Of a DNA stretch of 64,000 bases, positions 49,964 to 54,998 are shown one piece after another (position 1 is the stretch's first letter; the number at the start of each line of letters is the position of its first letter). Position numbers and translations under genes: made by a program. The DNA is from Paenibacillus sp. FSL R5-0766 (lineage in GTDB: Bacteria; Bacillota; Bacilli; Paenibacillales; Paenibacillaceae). The notes below the pieces were generated by a model. That model ran no database searches and had not been told where the DNA came from. It saw only the letters and a program-made list of their open reading frames with translations. The stretch covers positions 6,758,001 through 6,822,000 of the forward strand of contig NZ_CP150227.1 in assembly GCF_037971845.1 (NCBI RefSeq), read 5' to 3'.

Positions 49964-50662
49964 TCAGTCTTTTTTGGATTTCATGGTAAGCGGCGCATTC
50001 TTCATCATCGGGTAGGTAGAGAGAAGTAGCGCACCACCAATGAATCCCAGAACGGTGAACAATGTCATGCGATTGATCCTAGCAATCCACAACATAAACT
50101 CACCAAGATCGCCCAATGTAATTATCAGCGTAATGACCAAGCCAACCCCGAAAAACATAATGAAGAAGTTACGCATCCCTAAGCGCATCCAACAAACCGT
50201 TGGGAAGACAGAGATTCCCAGTACGAGAAAGCCGCACATCAGATCGATCCACAGGTAGGATAAGAAATGATATTTGCTTGAATACAACATGCCTGGTTGA
50301 TAAAGGGTTACGTCAACAATTCCTTTTTCCTGAAGCAGGTGTAAGAGGAAGTACGCCACATGCAGAATGATCATGGTGCCCGCAACCATCCATACCGAAT
50401 TCATATAGAAGGATTTCATGAATTGAATTCGTGTACTGCCCATTCCAATCGCAACCGGAAACAGTGTAATCATTCCCCCGATTGCAAACGTACATATCCC
50501 TCCGTACATGGGACCAAACAGTTGCGTAGCATACGAGACATCAAATATGAAGCCAATGGCCAAATATACAACGGCGAGCATTAGAGCGATGGATGAAAAT
50601 ATGCCCAGATACAAACGCATATCATCACGAATCAGTCGGTTCGTACCTTTTACTGCGTTCAT
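49964..50662 (-). CDS. ABC transporter membrane subunit of a GntR-ABC operon
   Basis: A 232-residue protein with six predicted spans (LGIFSSIALMLAVVYLAIGF; MYGGICTFAIGGMITLFP; MVAGTMIILHVAYFLLHLL; LWIDLMCGFLVLGISVFP; FFIMFFGVGLVITLIITLG; FTVLGFIGGALLLST). It overlaps the ATPase gene by four bases and would form the channel of the transporter. The transported compound is unknown; YtrA-type systems respond to wall-active antibiotics. Confidence 0.82.
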   Translation of the reverse strand: MNAVKGTNRLIRDDMRLYLGIFSSIALMLAVVYLAIGFIFDVSYATQLFGPMYGGICTFAIGGMITLFPVAIGMGSTRIQFMKSFYMNSVWMVAGTMIILHVAYFLLHLLQEKGIVDVTLYQPGMLYSSKYHFLSYLWIDLMCGFLVLGISVFPTVCWMRLGMRNFFIMFFGVGLVITLIITLGDLGEFMLWIARINRMTLFTVLGFIGGALLLSTYPMMKNAPLTMKSKKD

Positions 50663-51534
50663 GGTTTAACCCCCTCTTGATTACGGGTCCTGTTAACCAA
50701 ATAATCTTGTAATGTCGCTTTCTCAATGGAAAGTCCCTGCGAATGAGCGATATCCTTCCACATTTTCGAGTAGGGCTCATCAATCATCACTTTCACAGTT
50801 GATCCCATCTGGGAAGACTCTATAACTTTAACACCTGCTGTAACTCGGTTAATATCATCAATTACCCCTGTTAGAAGAACTCCTTTTTCGCGCATCTCTT
50901 CCATCGGTTGATTTAACAACACCTCTCCGGCTTGCAAAACGATAAGGGACTCACATAAAGGCTGAATCTCCTCAATATGATGGCTGGATATCAGAATCAG
51001 ACGCGGGTTATCTTCATAACTTTCCAGTAGCGCATTATAGAAGAATTTACGCTTTTCAGCATCGAGCCCATTGGTGGGTTCATCCAGAATGGTTATCTTA
51101 GCATTACTGGCAAGACCTAATATAATCTGGGTGGCAGTCTTCATGCCTTTCGAAAATTTAATGATCTTTTTCTTCTCCGGTAGTTCGAACACATCGATTA
51201 AACGTTCCGCCAACTCCTGATTCCACTGCGGATGAAAATATTGCCCCATTTGAACCAGGTCACTAACCGTCCAGTTTTTGCCCAAGGGATGATTCTCCTG
51301 GATGTAGCACAGATGCTCTTGGGCAGCCAGATTATTATAGGGGTCTTGACCCATGATCTGAACGGTTCCACTGTCCGGGCGGTTATGCCCTGCAAGTAAA
51401 CTCATCAGTGTTGTTTTACCAGCTCCATTTCTTCCCCAGATTGCACTAATGATTGGCTCACTCTCATGTAGCGTAACCTGGTTCAGAACGGGCGTCTTCT
51501 GGTAGCTGTAGTTGACCTGCTCCATATGAATCAT
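50659..51534 (-). CDS. ABC transporter ATP-binding protein
   Basis: A 291-residue ATPase with Walker A GRNGAGKTTLMSLLAG, Q-loop region IQENHPLG, the signature FSKGMKTATQ, which is a variant of LSGGQ, and Walker B ITILDEPTNGLD. The His switch lies in LISSHHIEE. The ATG overlaps the GntR gene stop and follows AAGGAG. Together with the next gene it makes an exporter controlled by the GntR regulator. Confidence 0.93.
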   Translation of the reverse strand: MIHMEQVNYSYQKTPVLNQVTLHESEPIISAIWGRNGAGKTTLMSLLAGHNRPDSGTVQIMGQDPYNNLAAQEHLCYIQENHPLGKNWTVSDLVQMGQYFHPQWNQELAERLIDVFELPEKKKIIKFSKGMKTATQIILGLASNAKITILDEPTNGLDAEKRKFFYNALLESYEDNPRLILISSHHIEEIQPLCESLIVLQAGEVLLNQPMEEMREKGVLLTGVIDDINRVTAGVKVIESSQMGSTVKVMIDEPYSKMWKDIAHSQGLSIEKATLQDYLVNRTRNQEGVKP

Positions 51535-51911
51535 AACTCACTCTCCTTATCCTTCTTGCCGCGAATCAGATCAATGATCATGTCTTCATTCATGTGAATC
51601 CGTCTGGCTTCTTCAAGTAAAGGCTTGATGTATTCTTCATAAAAATCTTGCTTCCGTTCAACGAGCAATGCTTCTCTTGCTCCCTTTGCAACAAACATTC
51701 CAACACCTCGCTGTTTGTATATAATCCCCTTGTCCACGAGTTCCTGCAGTCCTTTGCGAGCTGTAGCCGGATTGATATTGTAGAAGCGTGACAGTTCATT
51801 GGTTGAGGGAACCTGTTCTTCCACCTTCAATCTACCCTCCACAATATCGTCCATAATCATTGTGGCAATCTGATGAAAAATAGGCTGAGATTCATCCAAA
51901 GTCGATTTCAT
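51531..51911 (-). CDS. GntR-family regulator of the YtrA subfamily
   Basis: A 126-residue short regulator with winged helix PSTNELSRFYNINPATARKGLQ and KGIIYKQRGVGMFV, then two helices for dimerisation, the size of the YtrA group. I prefer ATG 51911 (MKSTLDESQPIFHQIA) because the family normally starts at this block; an ATG at 51938 has no ribosome site. It is first in an overlapping three-gene operon and likely represses it through the palindrome at 51953-51974. Confidence 0.88.
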   Translation of the reverse strand: MKSTLDESQPIFHQIATMIMDDIVEGRLKVEEQVPSTNELSRFYNINPATARKGLQELVDKGIIYKQRGVGMFVAKGAREALLVERKQDFYEEYIKPLLEEARRIHMNEDMIIDLIRGKKDKESEL

Positions 51912-51952
51912 GTGCTTCCAACTTTCATACGTATTCATTAGTCAGTTAGTCG

Positions 51953-52001
51953 GTTAGTTACTCATGTAACTAACTATAGTATACAAAGACGCAAATGTAA
52001 A
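51953..52001 (-). promoter_or_regulatory. Promoter and YtrA-type operator
   Basis: The dyad GTTAGTTAC (51953-51961), four bases, GTAACTAAC (51966-51974) is perfect over nine bases. On the minus strand it overlaps the start region of a promoter with -35 TTTACA (51996-52001), 17 bases and -10 TATAGT (51973-51978). This is a good repressor site for the GntR protein. Confidence 0.8.
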
Positions 52002-52010
52002 TAGGCGAAC

Positions 52011-52181
52011 TTAATTCATTGCCTTTCCTACCTTGGCTCTGTTGTATTGATTAATAAGACCGTCCAGGACTACGGATTGCTGGATCACTTCCGGATGAAG
52101 CAGACTGCCGTATTCCATATGCATGCGATATAACAACTGTCTGGCATCTTCGATCCGTGATATCAAATCCAGCCGATCCAT
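52011..52181 (-). CDS. Spo0E-family aspartyl-phosphate phosphatase-like protein
   Basis: A 56-residue two-helix protein: MDRLDLISRIEDARQLLYR, then VIQQSVVLDGLINQYNR with the S-x-x-LD-x-LI-x-x-Y core of Spo0E-type proteins, which dephosphorylate Spo0A~P and hold back sporulation. The ATG at 52181 follows AAGGAGGG. It lies just downstream of the receptor/pro-peptide pair on the same strand but behind that unit's terminator. Confidence 0.88.
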   Translation of the reverse strand: MDRLDLISRIEDARQLLYRMHMEYGSLLHPEVIQQSVVLDGLINQYNRAKVGKAMN

Positions 52182-52272
52182 AGTATCCCTCCTTTTTGTC
52201 ATATTTTAGTGTATTATGCCAATCATAAGCGCATGTGAGATACGACATACTTATTCTTCCACTTTGATACAC

Positions 52273-52314
52273 AAAAAAGAACACCTCTGAAATAAATTCA
52301 GAAGTGTTCTTTTC
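52273..52314 (-). terminator. Terminator of the receptor/pro-peptide unit
   Basis: AAAAGAACACCTCTGAA and TTCAGAAGTGTTCTTTT form a long stem; the minus strand continues with T residues. It lies eight bases after the pro-peptide stop. Confidence 0.9.
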
Positions 52315-52321
52315 ATTTTTA

Positions 52322-52462
52322 TTACGTTCCAAATCCGTGATCAGCGGGTCTCATAATTTCGGGGTTCGGGATTTCATTGCCTGGGACAGGTTCCGTAGCA
52401 GGGACTACGATGAATACAACGATACTACAGGTAGCTATCAGCAAAGCCAACTTTCTCTTCAT
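52322..52462 (-). CDS. 46-residue secreted pro-peptide of a quorum-sensing pair (AloP-like)
   Basis: The frame starts at ATG 52462 inside the 3' end of the receptor gene (38-base overlap), with GAGGTG ten bases upstream, and ends with TAA before a terminator. The product has a basic start (MKRK), a hydrophobic segment LALLIATCSIVVFIVVPA and a short polar tail TEPVPGNEIPNPEIMRPADH followed by GFGT. This is the build of Phr, PapR, NprX and AimP precursors: exported, cut, and the C-terminal part re-imported to act on the receptor. Location directly after an HTH-TPR gene supports it. The mature peptide is not known; the C-terminal stretch from PEIMRPADH is the best guess. Confidence 0.78.
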   Translation of the reverse strand: MKRKLALLIATCSIVVFIVVPATEPVPGNEIPNPEIMRPADHGFGT

Positions 52463-53807
52463 TGAGTTTCTGCACCTCACTAATTATCATTTTGTATTGC
52501 TTTTTCGCCGTCTCAGATGCAAATTCCCGATATTGCTCAAACAGTCCGACACCTCTAAGCATACCTCGTCCACTGCTAATTTCAATAGAAAATTTTAAAC
52601 TATCCAGCACAAATTCTATACCTAAATGAAACTCGTCTTTCTTTAAATAATATGCACCCAAATCTGCTAAAAGTCGTAAATATCGATCATCCGTAACCTG
52701 TCTGCTCACTTTGCCAATTCGGTTGCTCTGTTCCTGATAAGTGAAGTACGATTCATACTGTTTGAGAACATGATCAATATCCTTATCATAACGATTAGCC
52801 GCTGTTACAATATCACACAGCGCTGGGAATATCTCATTTTCCTTCGTCGAGATATACGCCAGATAATCAGGTAACACCTCAAACTGTCCACCCATTAAAT
52901 GATATATATATCGATTCGCTTCAGCCCATTCCTGAAACTGATTCATAACAACGATTTCATCTTTATCCGGGTTCCTCACCCAGCGATTATCCGAATATAA
53001 AGAAACATAGTTAAGTGCTGCGGTGTAGTCTTTCAAATGATAACAGGCACTTCCTGCAGCTAGATCGGAGTACAGAATATAGAAGACAATTGGTCTTTTG
53101 GTCTCTTCTTGTTTCCTTCGGCCATTCATCTCATAATGGATGGACGCTTTTATTTTCAATTTTTCAGATAACTCCTGAACCTTGTTCCATCTATGCAACG
53201 CTCCAAATGCATTAATTAGTTCATTAAGCGCATCCAATTGATAGCGCTCATCCAGCCGATCCACATAGTATTCGAACCGGGCTGCAATAATCAGATTCCG
53301 CTGCTGATCATTGGTCAGTCCCAACCGGAACAGTCGATACTGACAGAGTGCAAGCCGCTCGGAATGTTGCATTTTCTCGCTTTCAGCAATGTTCTCATAT
53401 AGAAGGATGGCTGGTTTGAATTTACCCGCTTGGTAGAATTCTTCAGCCACCTCAAATAACAAAGGAATATAGGATAGATTATCCATCATTAGACGAATAA
53501 CCTCTTCAATACAGTCCAACTTGTCCAACTCGGCACAGCGATGAAGGAAGGGTCCCAGTCTTCGCCAGTCCGGGGTCGCGTGTACAAAACACTCATCTAT
53601 GTATAACTCATAGAAGTAACCTTCTTCCAGTCTCATGGCGGAAGTAATGCGATCCAACTGCTGCATGGCAATTGGCCGATTTTTATTCAAAATATTGCTG
53701 AGCGTACCCGAATTAATCCCTGACGTTTCCGAAAAATGACTAATGGACATCTGTTCACGCTTCAGATAACTTTCCAAGTGATCGCGTATCGTGGTTGTCG
53801 ACTCCAA
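52425..53807 (-). CDS. HTH-TPR peptide receptor of the RRNPP type (AloR-like)
   Basis: A 460-residue protein with an N-terminal Xre-type HTH (about 7-60; LKREQMSISHFSETSGINSG) and a long helical array with TPR-like units (AEEFYQAGKFKPAILLYENI; ACYHLKDYTAALNYV; LLADLGAYYLKKDEFHLGIE). This is the layout of AimR, NprR and PlcR, which bind short peptides in the groove of the repeats. AloR receptors of Paenibacillus polymyxa have the same layout and a pro-peptide gene downstream (recalled). I take TTG 53807 as the start, ten bases after GGAGGG; an ATG 30 bases upstream has no ribosome site. A dyad TAATTA-TATG-TAATTA (53863-53878) and two TATCGGT repeats lie in its promoter region. Confidence 0.85.
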   Translation of the reverse strand: MESTTTIRDHLESYLKREQMSISHFSETSGINSGTLSNILNKNRPIAMQQLDRITSAMRLEEGYFYELYIDECFVHATPDWRRLGPFLHRCAELDKLDCIEEVIRLMMDNLSYIPLLFEVAEEFYQAGKFKPAILLYENIAESEKMQHSERLALCQYRLFRLGLTNDQQRNLIIAARFEYYVDRLDERYQLDALNELINAFGALHRWNKVQELSEKLKIKASIHYEMNGRRKQEETKRPIVFYILYSDLAAGSACYHLKDYTAALNYVSLYSDNRWVRNPDKDEIVVMNQFQEWAEANRYIYHLMGGQFEVLPDYLAYISTKENEIFPALCDIVTAANRYDKDIDHVLKQYESYFTYQEQSNRIGKVSRQVTDDRYLRLLADLGAYYLKKDEFHLGIEFVLDSLKFSIEISSGRGMLRGVGLFEQYREFASETAKKQYKMIISEVQKLNEEKVGFADSYL

Positions 53808-53846
53808 ACGAACACCACCCTCCAAAATAAAAAACATAAACGGGAT

Positions 53847-53890
53847 TATCGGTATGCAAAAGTAATTATATGTAATTAGAAAGTATCGGT
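53847..53890 (-). promoter_or_regulatory. Candidate operator region of the receptor gene
   Basis: TATCGGT occurs at 53847-53853 and again at 53884-53890, on either side of the dyad TAATTA-TATG-TAATTA (53863-53878). The arrangement lies 40-80 bases before the receptor start and could bind the receptor itself. There is no direct evidence. Confidence 0.4.
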
Positions 53891-54006
53891 CAATATAATA
53901 ATTTCAACTAATTTGTATTAAAACCATTTTAATCCTTTTTTTAAAACGGACAATCCTATCCTTATTTTATATCGGAAAGGCGCCTGACATCAAACCTGAA
54001 AATAGA

Positions 54007-54037
54007 CAAAAAACACGAGCCATCCACGGGCTCGTGT
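54007..54037 (-). terminator. Terminator after the aldo-keto reductase
   Basis: ACACGAGCC and GGGCTCGTGT form a stem; the minus strand has six T after it. It lies 44 bases beyond the stop at 54081. Confidence 0.88.
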
Positions 54038-54080
54038 CCTCAACTGACTCAACAGTCAGTATACTCACTATAACTTGGAT

Positions 54081-54998
54081 TTAAGGCAGTATATTACCTG
54101 CCGCACGGTAAATTTCATACCACTCTGGACGAGTGAGATGAACATCTCCTGCTTTTACACAGTCTTGCAGACGTTCAATATTCATCGTGCCTGTCACGGG
54201 TTGCATCTGTGCAGGATGACGAAGCAACCATGCGATTGCAATCGTTGTATTGCTCACGTCATACTTCGCAGCAATCTCGTCGATCTTTGCATTCAATTCC
54301 GGGAACTTGTCGCTACCCAGGAATACACCTTCGAAGAATCCGTACTGGAACGGAGACCAAGGTTGAATGGTGATATCATGCAGACGACAATAATCCAGGA
54401 TACTGCCGTCACGGTTAACCGCAGCGTCGTTCTCCATGTTCACGTTGATGCCACTGTCAATCATCGTGGTATTGGTAATACTCATCTGCAACTGATTGGC
54501 TACCAGTGGCTGTTTCACATATTTTTTCAACAATTCGATCTGGTTCGGATTCTGGTTGGATACCCCGAAGTGACGCACTTTACCTTCGCGCTCCAGTTGA
54601 TCAAAGGCTTCCGCCACTTCCTCTGGCTCAACCAATGCATCTGGACGGTGCAGCAGCAGAACGTCAAGATATTCCGTTTTCAGACGTTGCAGGATGCCAT
54701 CGACTGAATTCAGGATGTGCTCTTTGGAGAAATCAAACATACCTTTACGGATACCGCATTTGGATTGAAGAATCATATTTTCACGAACTTGGGGATTCAT
54801 CTGTACCGCTTCGGCGAAGATCTCCTCACATGTTCCTGTACCATAAATGTCGGCATGGTCAAAGAAATTCGCACCAACCTCCATTGCAGAACGAACAAAA
54901 TGTTCGGCTTCCTTACCGTCTAGTGAATTAATCCGCATGCAGCCCACCGCGACTACAGGTACTTCTAGTGCACTGCTGCCCAATTTAATCGTTCTCAA
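54081..54998 (-). CDS. Aldo/keto reductase
   Basis: A 305-residue enzyme with the AKR blocks: GANFFDHADIYGTG (catalytic Asp and Tyr), MILQSKCGIRKG (catalytic Lys), LDVLLLHRPD (catalytic His) and VRHFGVSNQ. It is like the B. subtilis YcsN-type AKR. The start is a TTG at 54998 (MRTIKLGSSALEV), eight bases after GGAGGG; upstream extension has no support. The substrate is unknown. Confidence 0.9.
   Translation of the reverse strand: MRTIKLGSSALEVPVVAVGCMRINSLDGKEAEHFVRSAMEVGANFFDHADIYGTGTCEEIFAEAVQMNPQVRENMILQSKCGIRKGMFDFSKEHILNSVDGILQRLKTEYLDVLLLHRPDALVEPEEVAEAFDQLEREGKVRHFGVSNQNPNQIELLKKYVKQPLVANQLQMSITNTTMIDSGINVNMENDAAVNRDGSILDYCRLHDITIQPWSPFQYGFFEGVFLGSDKFPELNAKIDEIAAKYDVSNTTIAIAWLLRHPAQMQPVTGTMNIERLQDCVKAGDVHLTRPEWYEIYRAAGNILP

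Follow-up and report, generated by a model that had tools for sequence, protein, structure and literature searches.

The closest described system to the one analysed here is Alo13 of Paenibacillus polymyxa, an AloR13-AloP13-spo0E unit reported by Voichek et al. 2020 (PMC7425212). In that report, the system was assayed in a B. subtilis reporter strain, spo0E is activated by the peptide-free receptor, and the AloP13 peptide SHGRGG was shown to act; a spo0E-like gene lies directly downstream in a subset of the Alo systems described there. AloR systems are recovered broadly by RRNPP_Detector (PMC10075063). Here we examine a locus on the minus strand of a 64,000-nucleotide stretch of the soil bacterium Paenibacillus sp. 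FSL R5-0766 (contig NZ_CP150227.1, positions 6,758,001 to 6,822,000; the whole stretch is called the window), in which a receptor gene, a pro-peptide gene, a terminator, a 51-bp inverted repeat and a Spo0E-like gene follow each other in this order (Table 1). The pair belongs to the known AloR-AloP family: our best-supported reading is a receptor/pro-peptide pair of the RRNPP type and, more precisely, of the Alo kind, because the receptor is homologous to the receptor next to AloP13, the pro-peptide is conserved with a frozen tail, and the type of this tail is coupled to the C-terminal half of the receptor. The same observations uphold the AloR-AloP-type RRNPP layout proposed in a first-pass annotation, whose interval (52322-53807), taken as the whole unit, stops before the spo0E-like gene and missed it. 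With a probability of about 0.82, we consider the locus to be an Alo-type (RRNPP-like) cell-cell signalling unit, aloR-aloP-spo0E, that is controlled by a hexapeptide and exists in two specificity types exchanged by recombination.

The receptor/pro-peptide pair is conserved among relatives

The receptor is 33% identical (residues 1-459, E 1e-79) to the receptor adjoining the exact published AloP13 pro-peptide, and the 7.0-Mb genome of the window encodes three further near-full-length homologs (57, 43 and 40% identical) and one partial homolog (25%). Homologous loci were collected by scanning genome contigs (37 loci), by searching the genomes of 119 relatives, from which the 30 best matches were fetched, and by adding the loci of the own genome, for a total of 71; 15 further receptor matches (77-86%) were left unfetched, some of them probably in genomes already included through the contig scan. 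The genome collections hold one genome per species. The 57 loci with a receptor at least 76% identical form the ortholog set, and the 14 below 76% were kept out of all ortholog counts. As the two collections overlap, these 57 loci reduce to 43 distinct sequences, used for trees, and to 38 distinct pro-peptide genes, used for the ratio of nonsynonymous to synonymous polymorphism (pN/pS).

The small frame is open and ends in DHG[F/L]G[T/S] in 57/57 orthologous loci (43 distinct sequences). Across the 38 distinct genes, which end in DHGFGT (20), DHGLGT (15) or DHGFGS (3), pN/pS is 0.064 for the last six codons, 0.27 for the last ten and 0.67 for the linker between the signal sequence and the tail. 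A frame with an xHGxG tail also follows 10 of the 14 more distant receptors (SHGLGS, SHGLGG, SHGLGT, GHGMGS, GHGTGS and SHGVGRI among them). The refuting case named in the first-pass annotation, a small frame that is not conserved beside receptor homologs, is contradicted by these counts. In genomes of the group that bears AloP13, ...SHGLGGW... frames lie behind the closest receptors, and the frame behind Alo13 has SHGRGG. Position 4 is the most varied of the xHGxGx tails and may therefore be the main specificity letter. The first-pass annotation had divided the tail as PEIMRPADH followed by GFGT and regarded it as a new signal; the last six residues, DHGFGT, are the likelier mature piece, by analogy with AloP13, and they are a variant of the Alo-type xHGxGx tail, not an unrelated signal.

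Some loci depart from the common arrangement. The receptor frame of L040 is interrupted. In Paenibacillus caui (L039) two tandem 44-aa pro-peptides, with frames at -37 and +178 from the receptor stop, differ in three residues and end in GHGTGS and GHGMGS; intralocus signal duplication has been proposed as an intermediate in Rap-Phr specificity change (PMC5199041), and the tandem is a duplication of this kind. Second receptor copies in tandem are present in two genomes (L085 in G055, L086 in G060); in G060 the match to one copy is divided into two pieces by a stop, this copy has no obvious pro-peptide, and a spo0E-like gene comes after the second copy. Among the paralogs of the own genome, L002 (G000:C1:6340858-6342210) has the tail GHGTGS and a spo0E-like match at +299 downstream, L003 (431877-433238) has SHGVGRI and a spo0E-like match at +1057, and no pro-peptide was recognised at L004 or at L005, which is partial.

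Two peptide types are linked to the C-terminal half of the receptor

The orthologs fall into two types, with Phe or Leu at peptide position 4, and the alternative receptor and peptide types are linked to each other and unlinked from the flanks; in these flanks related genomes align with each other at the DNA level. The window locus (F-tail) and L019 (L-tail) agree at 93-99% of positions in the flanks, the receptor promoter and receptor nt 1-600, and at 95-99% in the terminator and spo0E, whereas identity drops to 67-87% across receptor nt ~600-1383 and the pro-peptide. A set of 18 close loci (9 F, 9 L) delimits this block. The stretch from receptor nt 605 (codon 202) to nt 1495, a position 9 nt past the stop of the pro-peptide gene, holds all 86 fixed F/L nucleotide differences. 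Outside it, the same 18 loci show no such difference over the 600 bp before the receptor gene, over its first 604 nt or over the ~790 nt examined downstream; the HTH (helix-turn-helix) half, the promoter, spo0E and the near flanks are free of them. A chance origin of the block was rejected: random 9/9 splits (500 trials) gave at most one fixed difference inside and none outside, where 393 of 2004 columns vary. At the protein level, members of the close group are 98% identical over residues 1-201 regardless of tail, and over residues 202-460 they are 95-96% identical within a type vs. 79% between types.

Ten receptor residues (202, 203, 245, 247, 256, 259, 260, 262, 435 and 453) separate the types in 43/43 sequences; residues 449-460 are also encoded inside the overlap with the pro-peptide gene. 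L056 has an F-like stretch at nt ~1050-1200 within an L-type cassette, which suggests that codons ~350-400 are dispensable for the type. An origin of the L-type cassettes from a paralog was considered and dropped, as eight paralogs share just 50-66% identity with either type over the C-terminal half.

Trees of the 43 distinct orthologs give the same picture. On the tree of receptor nt 1-570 the L-tails need nine changes, and on that of the 700 nt downstream 13, and a single L clade is rejected for both (p 2.9e-44 and p 3.9e-40); on the tree of receptor nt 651-1340, from which the pro-peptide is excluded, they need two changes, and a single L clade is not rejected (p 0.30). A quick tree that includes the pro-peptide places all L-rows in one clade, a result that is partly circular. 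The nearest neighbour has the same tail type for 32/43 rows by the front half and for 42/43 by the back half, and both types recur across several species groups of the front-half tree. These data are strong genetic evidence that the pro-peptide and the C-terminal half of the receptor form one functional unit. The simplest reading is that the types are pherotypes, in which the signal and the domain that reads it would be co-inherited and exchanged between species, with a common DNA-binding half and output; each type would then answer its own peptide, without cross-talk.

A conserved inverted repeat precedes the spo0E-like gene

The spo0E-like gene (Pfam PF09388, E 3.8e-11 on the 63-codon frame) follows the pair in 49/57 orthologous loci. 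In 46 of these 49 it is preceded by TGTCRTAY...TATGACA, spanning exactly 51 bp in all 46; of the exceptions, L044 and L062 are one base off and L028 more. Only 3/2000 column permutations (19 distinct blocks) gave an inverted repeat as good, and the genome contains a single copy of the exact dyad (spacer 32-38). A genome scan for the dyad that allowed two mismatches returned counts similar to a reversed-pattern control, i.e. chance level, and only the exact dyad and its core with at most one mismatch were therefore used. The core, GATTGRCANNANNNNCTAAAATATRACA (at most one mismatch), is present in 13/13 genomes searched, at 15 places, vs. none for the reversed-pattern control; the 13 were chosen from the 68 of 119 genomes with a receptor match.

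The eight loci without a linked spo0E belong to one clade and keep an intact receptor/pro-peptide pair. In each of the five genomes tested among these, another Spo0E-like frame, 95-106 kb from the locus, has the core immediately in front of it; the outer arms there are similar and equally spaced, with one additional change in G012. The genome of the window has a stand-alone spo0E-like gene as well (L109, G000:C1:6697039), 113 kb off and with a weaker promoter core (17/25); L090-L092 are its relatives, stand-alone genes that lie ~95-113 kb from the locus and share the promoter core.

Of the six spo0E-like genes in the genome of the window, four have the core at the usual distance, with scores of 25, 19, 17 and 17 of 25, and the other two, which score 12 and 12, lack it there; at the paralogous loci the core recurs (19 and 17 of 25) and the outer arms do not. 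Scores are 25, 19, 17 and 13 of 25 for the four spo0E-like matches examined among the eight of G001, and 20, 16, 13 and 11 for the four of G003. Nine genomes lack a close receptor, as judged by the lack of a match at 1e-40, which leaves weaker homologs possible. In them a core score above 13 was found at the usual place in 0/22 spo0E-like genes examined out of 23 matches, a comparison that is confounded by gene kinship and in which the background within 260 nt elsewhere reaches 16. Given this distribution before spo0E-like genes, with vs. without a close receptor, we propose that the 51-bp element might be the operator of the receptor. AimR recognises a pair of inverted boxes 25 bp apart and tolerates longer spacers (PMC6458997), a binding style that the 35-bp spacer here would fit.

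Five neighbours of the pair were scanned: the Spo0E-like protein, an aldo-keto reductase, a GntR regulator, an ABC (ATP-binding cassette) transporter ATPase and a protein without a match. The GntR-type regulator, the ABC transporter ATPase and the protein without a Pfam match lie directly downstream of the spo0E-like gene (49967-51938, minus strand); the relatives without spo0E, inspected by eye, likewise have a GntR-like frame downstream.

Features of the two genes and their products

The 460-residue length and the HTH of the first-pass annotation stand. Pfam HTH_26 matches with E 6.5e-4 and a score of 20.3, just under the curated cut-off of 22; a PHROG regulator matches with E 5e-7, with the PHROG matches mostly within the HTH part; and the predicted structure places helices 7-17 to 48-57 there. 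The TPR (tetratricopeptide repeat)-like array, on the other hand, is borne out by the predicted fold only, an all-helical superhelix with a confidence (pLDDT, predicted local distance difference test) of 91.5: Pfam and NCBIfam returned weak HTH-type matches and no TPR, and PF07719 or PF13424 is precomputed for 4/120 receptor homologs among the matches listed. A sequence search for relatives with a solved structure gave only HTH-type regulators and likely chance rows, and Foldseek of the model against solved structures gave only generic superhelices with low TM-scores (template modelling scores). GGAGGGTGG is found upstream of the TTG start; conservation of an alternative ATG at 53837 was not found in the alignment of relatives.

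The closest phage proteins found are 24-26% identical, namely a protein of Brevibacillus phage SecTim467 (KT151957.1:67468-68790; 26% over 95%) and one of phage Emery (KC595516.1; 24% over 68%), and a predicted viral structure, BFVD S5MC02, aligns to the receptor with TM 0.66-0.71; all three are possible phage-borne Alo-like receptors. Plasmids of Paenibacillus and Brevibacillus carry further homologs (36 records, the best three 42-44% identical), including one of P. polymyxa ATCC 842.

The pro-peptide, at 46 aa, with a hydrophobic N-terminus and downstream of the receptor, falls within the Alo range of 32-50 aa. The frame coordinates confirm both its ATG frame and the exact overlap given in the first-pass annotation, and the GAGGTG ribosome site is kept in 38/38 distinct pro-peptide genes compared. 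Among the 450 ATG frames of 30-60 codons in the window it is the only one that combines a ribosome-site-like motif with a signal-peptide-like start, by a filter that was written with this frame in view. The terminator, likewise noted earlier, was missed by a simple terminator scan and detected by folding (52270-52325, -24 kcal/mol, z -7.5, as stable in 0/200 shuffles); it is also present in the ortholog alignment and, by eye, in the loci without spo0E. A Pfam YnaL match to the pro-peptide (E 0.02) was under the cut-off and discarded, and no Rfam family reached the gathering threshold in 51900-54100.

Table 1 Features of the locus (window coordinates)
Feature	Position	Strand	Basis or remark
Promoter of receptor gene, TTGACC-17-TATAAT	53865-53893	-	near-consensus, kept in relatives
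aloR-type receptor, HTH and all-helical superhelix	52425-53807	-	460 aa, TTG start
Receptor HTH region, residues 7-57	53637-53789	-	Pfam, PHROG, model helices
Pherotype cassette (putative), receptor codons 202-460 and pro-peptide	52313-53203	-	limits of fixed F/L differences, 18 close loci
Pro-peptide ribosome-binding site (GTGAGGTGCAG)	52470-52480	-	position from frame scan
aloP-type pro-peptide gene, 46 codons	52322-52462	-	ATG start; overlaps receptor by exactly 38 bp
Codons of likely mature signal DHGFGT	52325-52342	-	tail pN/pS; putative cut site by analogy to AloP13 SHGRGG
Intrinsic terminator after pro-peptide	52275-52313	-	folding; alignment of orthologs
51-bp inverted repeat, TGTCGTAT-N35-ATATGACA	52197-52247	-	candidate AloR operator/promoter of spo0E-like gene
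Spo0E-like regulatory phosphatase gene	52011-52181	-	56 codons from conserved ATG; Pfam PF09388

Proposed mechanism and alternatives

By analogy with Alo13, the 46-residue pro-peptide would be exported and trimmed to its C-terminal hexapeptide, most likely DHGFGT, which would be re-imported and bound by the superhelical C-terminal part of the receptor. The peptide-free receptor would activate the spo0E-like gene via the 51-bp inverted repeat; peptide binding would shut the gene off, Spo0A~P could rise, and sporulation-type programmes would then start at high density. Receptor codons ~202-460 and the pro-peptide would move together by homologous recombination under a common HTH half, promoter, operator and target. 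The full version of this model, which we favour with some reservation, is a trans-species pherotype Alo locus in which an ~890-bp cassette (Phe/Leu) is swapped under a fixed DNA-binding half, an 8-35-8 bp operator and a Spo0E output, with one clade rewired to a distant spo0E-like gene that has the same promoter element.

Several observations weigh against this picture. The intact pair in 8/57 loci without a linked spo0E means that spo0E is not the sole reason for keeping the pair and points to further targets of importance, the distal spo0E-like gene perhaps among them. At 33% identity to the tested AloR13, both the sign of regulation and the target could differ. The paralogs have only the core of the dyad, and the DNA upstream of the Alo13 spo0E (L072), by eye, lacks the 51-bp dyad, with neither core nor arms clear. 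An xHGxG-tailed frame was not found at 4 of the 14 more distant loci (L004, L005, L036, L041). The back-half tree without aloP needs two tail-type changes, not one, and its nearest neighbours agree in 42 rows, not all. Finally, fold matches of the receptor to RRNPP receptors are interleaved with unrelated superhelical proteins.

Some of these points would suit a genuine pair with a different output, that is, with a main target elsewhere than the neighbouring spo0E-like gene, or with a receptor that represses this gene and a peptide that relieves it. The loci that keep the tail without a linked spo0E and the distance to AloR13 fit such a scheme, and the inverted repeat, which by eye overlaps the likely -10 box, suits a repressor as well as an activator. 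We nevertheless think it unlikely, given the core before another Spo0E-like gene ~100 kb away in 5/5 spo0E-less genomes tested and the reported activation of spo0E by the peptide-free receptor in Alo13 (PMC7425212). A stronger, though still doubtful, contender concerns the element alone, on which Spo0A or AbrB, as a general regulator of sporulation, could take the place of the receptor. Spo0E-like genes are plausible Spo0A targets, and the half-site TGTCGTA resembles the Spo0A box, TGTCGAA. A general regulator is harder to reconcile with a core at the usual place in only 4/6 spo0E-like genes of the genome and, with the proviso of kinship, with the lack of scores above 13 in the nine genomes without a close receptor.

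The F/L dimorphism, for its part, might be no pherotype system at all and reflect one diverged segment that entered once and was spread by recombination, with no effect on peptide recognition. Bacteria commonly exchange DNA by homologous recombination around diverged segments, and Phe to Leu at one of six positions is a mild change. Such a segment would, however, hardly be expected to start at codon 202 and end nearly at the pro-peptide stop with the HTH half excluded, to recur as both types in several species groups, to show a drifting linker beside a nearly frozen tail, and to differ at the same ten receptor residues (202-262, 435, 453) in every sequence, and we regard this explanation as quite unlikely. 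A role of the small frame as a translation-coupled leader, or as a membrane peptide without signal function, would account for its hydrophobic N-terminus and its overlap with the receptor gene, and is very improbable: outside the overlap the tail codons are the most constrained, they co-vary with the C-terminal half of the receptor, and the same motif recurs after paralogous receptors and in AloP13, whose peptide was shown to be active (PMC7425212).

Implications and comparison with known systems

We found no published report of pherotypes, cassette exchange or recombination, or an operator for Alo systems; the supplementary tables of PMC7425212 may list this or a close locus. Apparently new for the family are the genetic evidence, obtained without a wet experiment, that the pro-peptide and the C-terminal half of the receptor form a functional unit, a small set of residues that could recognise peptide position 4, and a candidate operator with candidate linked and distal spo0E-like targets. 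If the reading is right, the locus is a natural domain-swap experiment that gives both the peptide code (position 4 of xHGxGx) and the receptor contacts. If the types do not cross-talk, close soil relatives would belong to different communication groups, each with its own timing of sporulation, and one recombination event could switch the group.

Rap proteins act on proteins, not on DNA, and in this they differ from the role proposed for the receptor here. The Rap-Phr systems of Bacillus (PMC5199041) resemble the locus in combining a TPR receptor with a C-terminal pro-peptide, in their diversification of specificity and in their link to Spo0A control; that study reports no evidence of divergence via recombination between Rap homologs, whereas the receptor here is a mosaic. 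In the AimR-AimP-aimX arbitrium system of Bacillus phages (PMC6458997), the next gene is activated via two inverted, long-spaced boxes and a hexapeptide shuts it off, as we propose here. That system controls phage lysogeny, while the candidate operator described here has 8-bp arms and a 35-bp spacer, lies on a bacterial chromosome and would serve a spo0E-like phosphatase gene. The locus is like Alo13 in its HTH and TPR-like receptor, its overlapping short pro-peptide with a hydrophobic start, its xHGxGx hexapeptide and its adjacent spo0E-like gene. It differs from Alo13 in its probable signal (DHGFGT vs. SHGRGG), in a receptor only a third identical, in its dyad, of which none is seen by eye at Alo13, and in its two recombining specificity types, of which the available text of PMC7425212 describes none. 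The known ComR-ComS pherotypes of Streptococcus suis (PMC4072589) resemble it in an RRNPP-type receptor that is paired with different peptides and can be transferred with them as a unit; between the two strains compared there, the DNA-binding domain is identical and all variation falls in the C-terminal half. ComR-ComS controls competence within one species, whereas the locus described here points to a sporulation-type target, spans several species groups and has limits of exchange that could be mapped to the pro-peptide stop.
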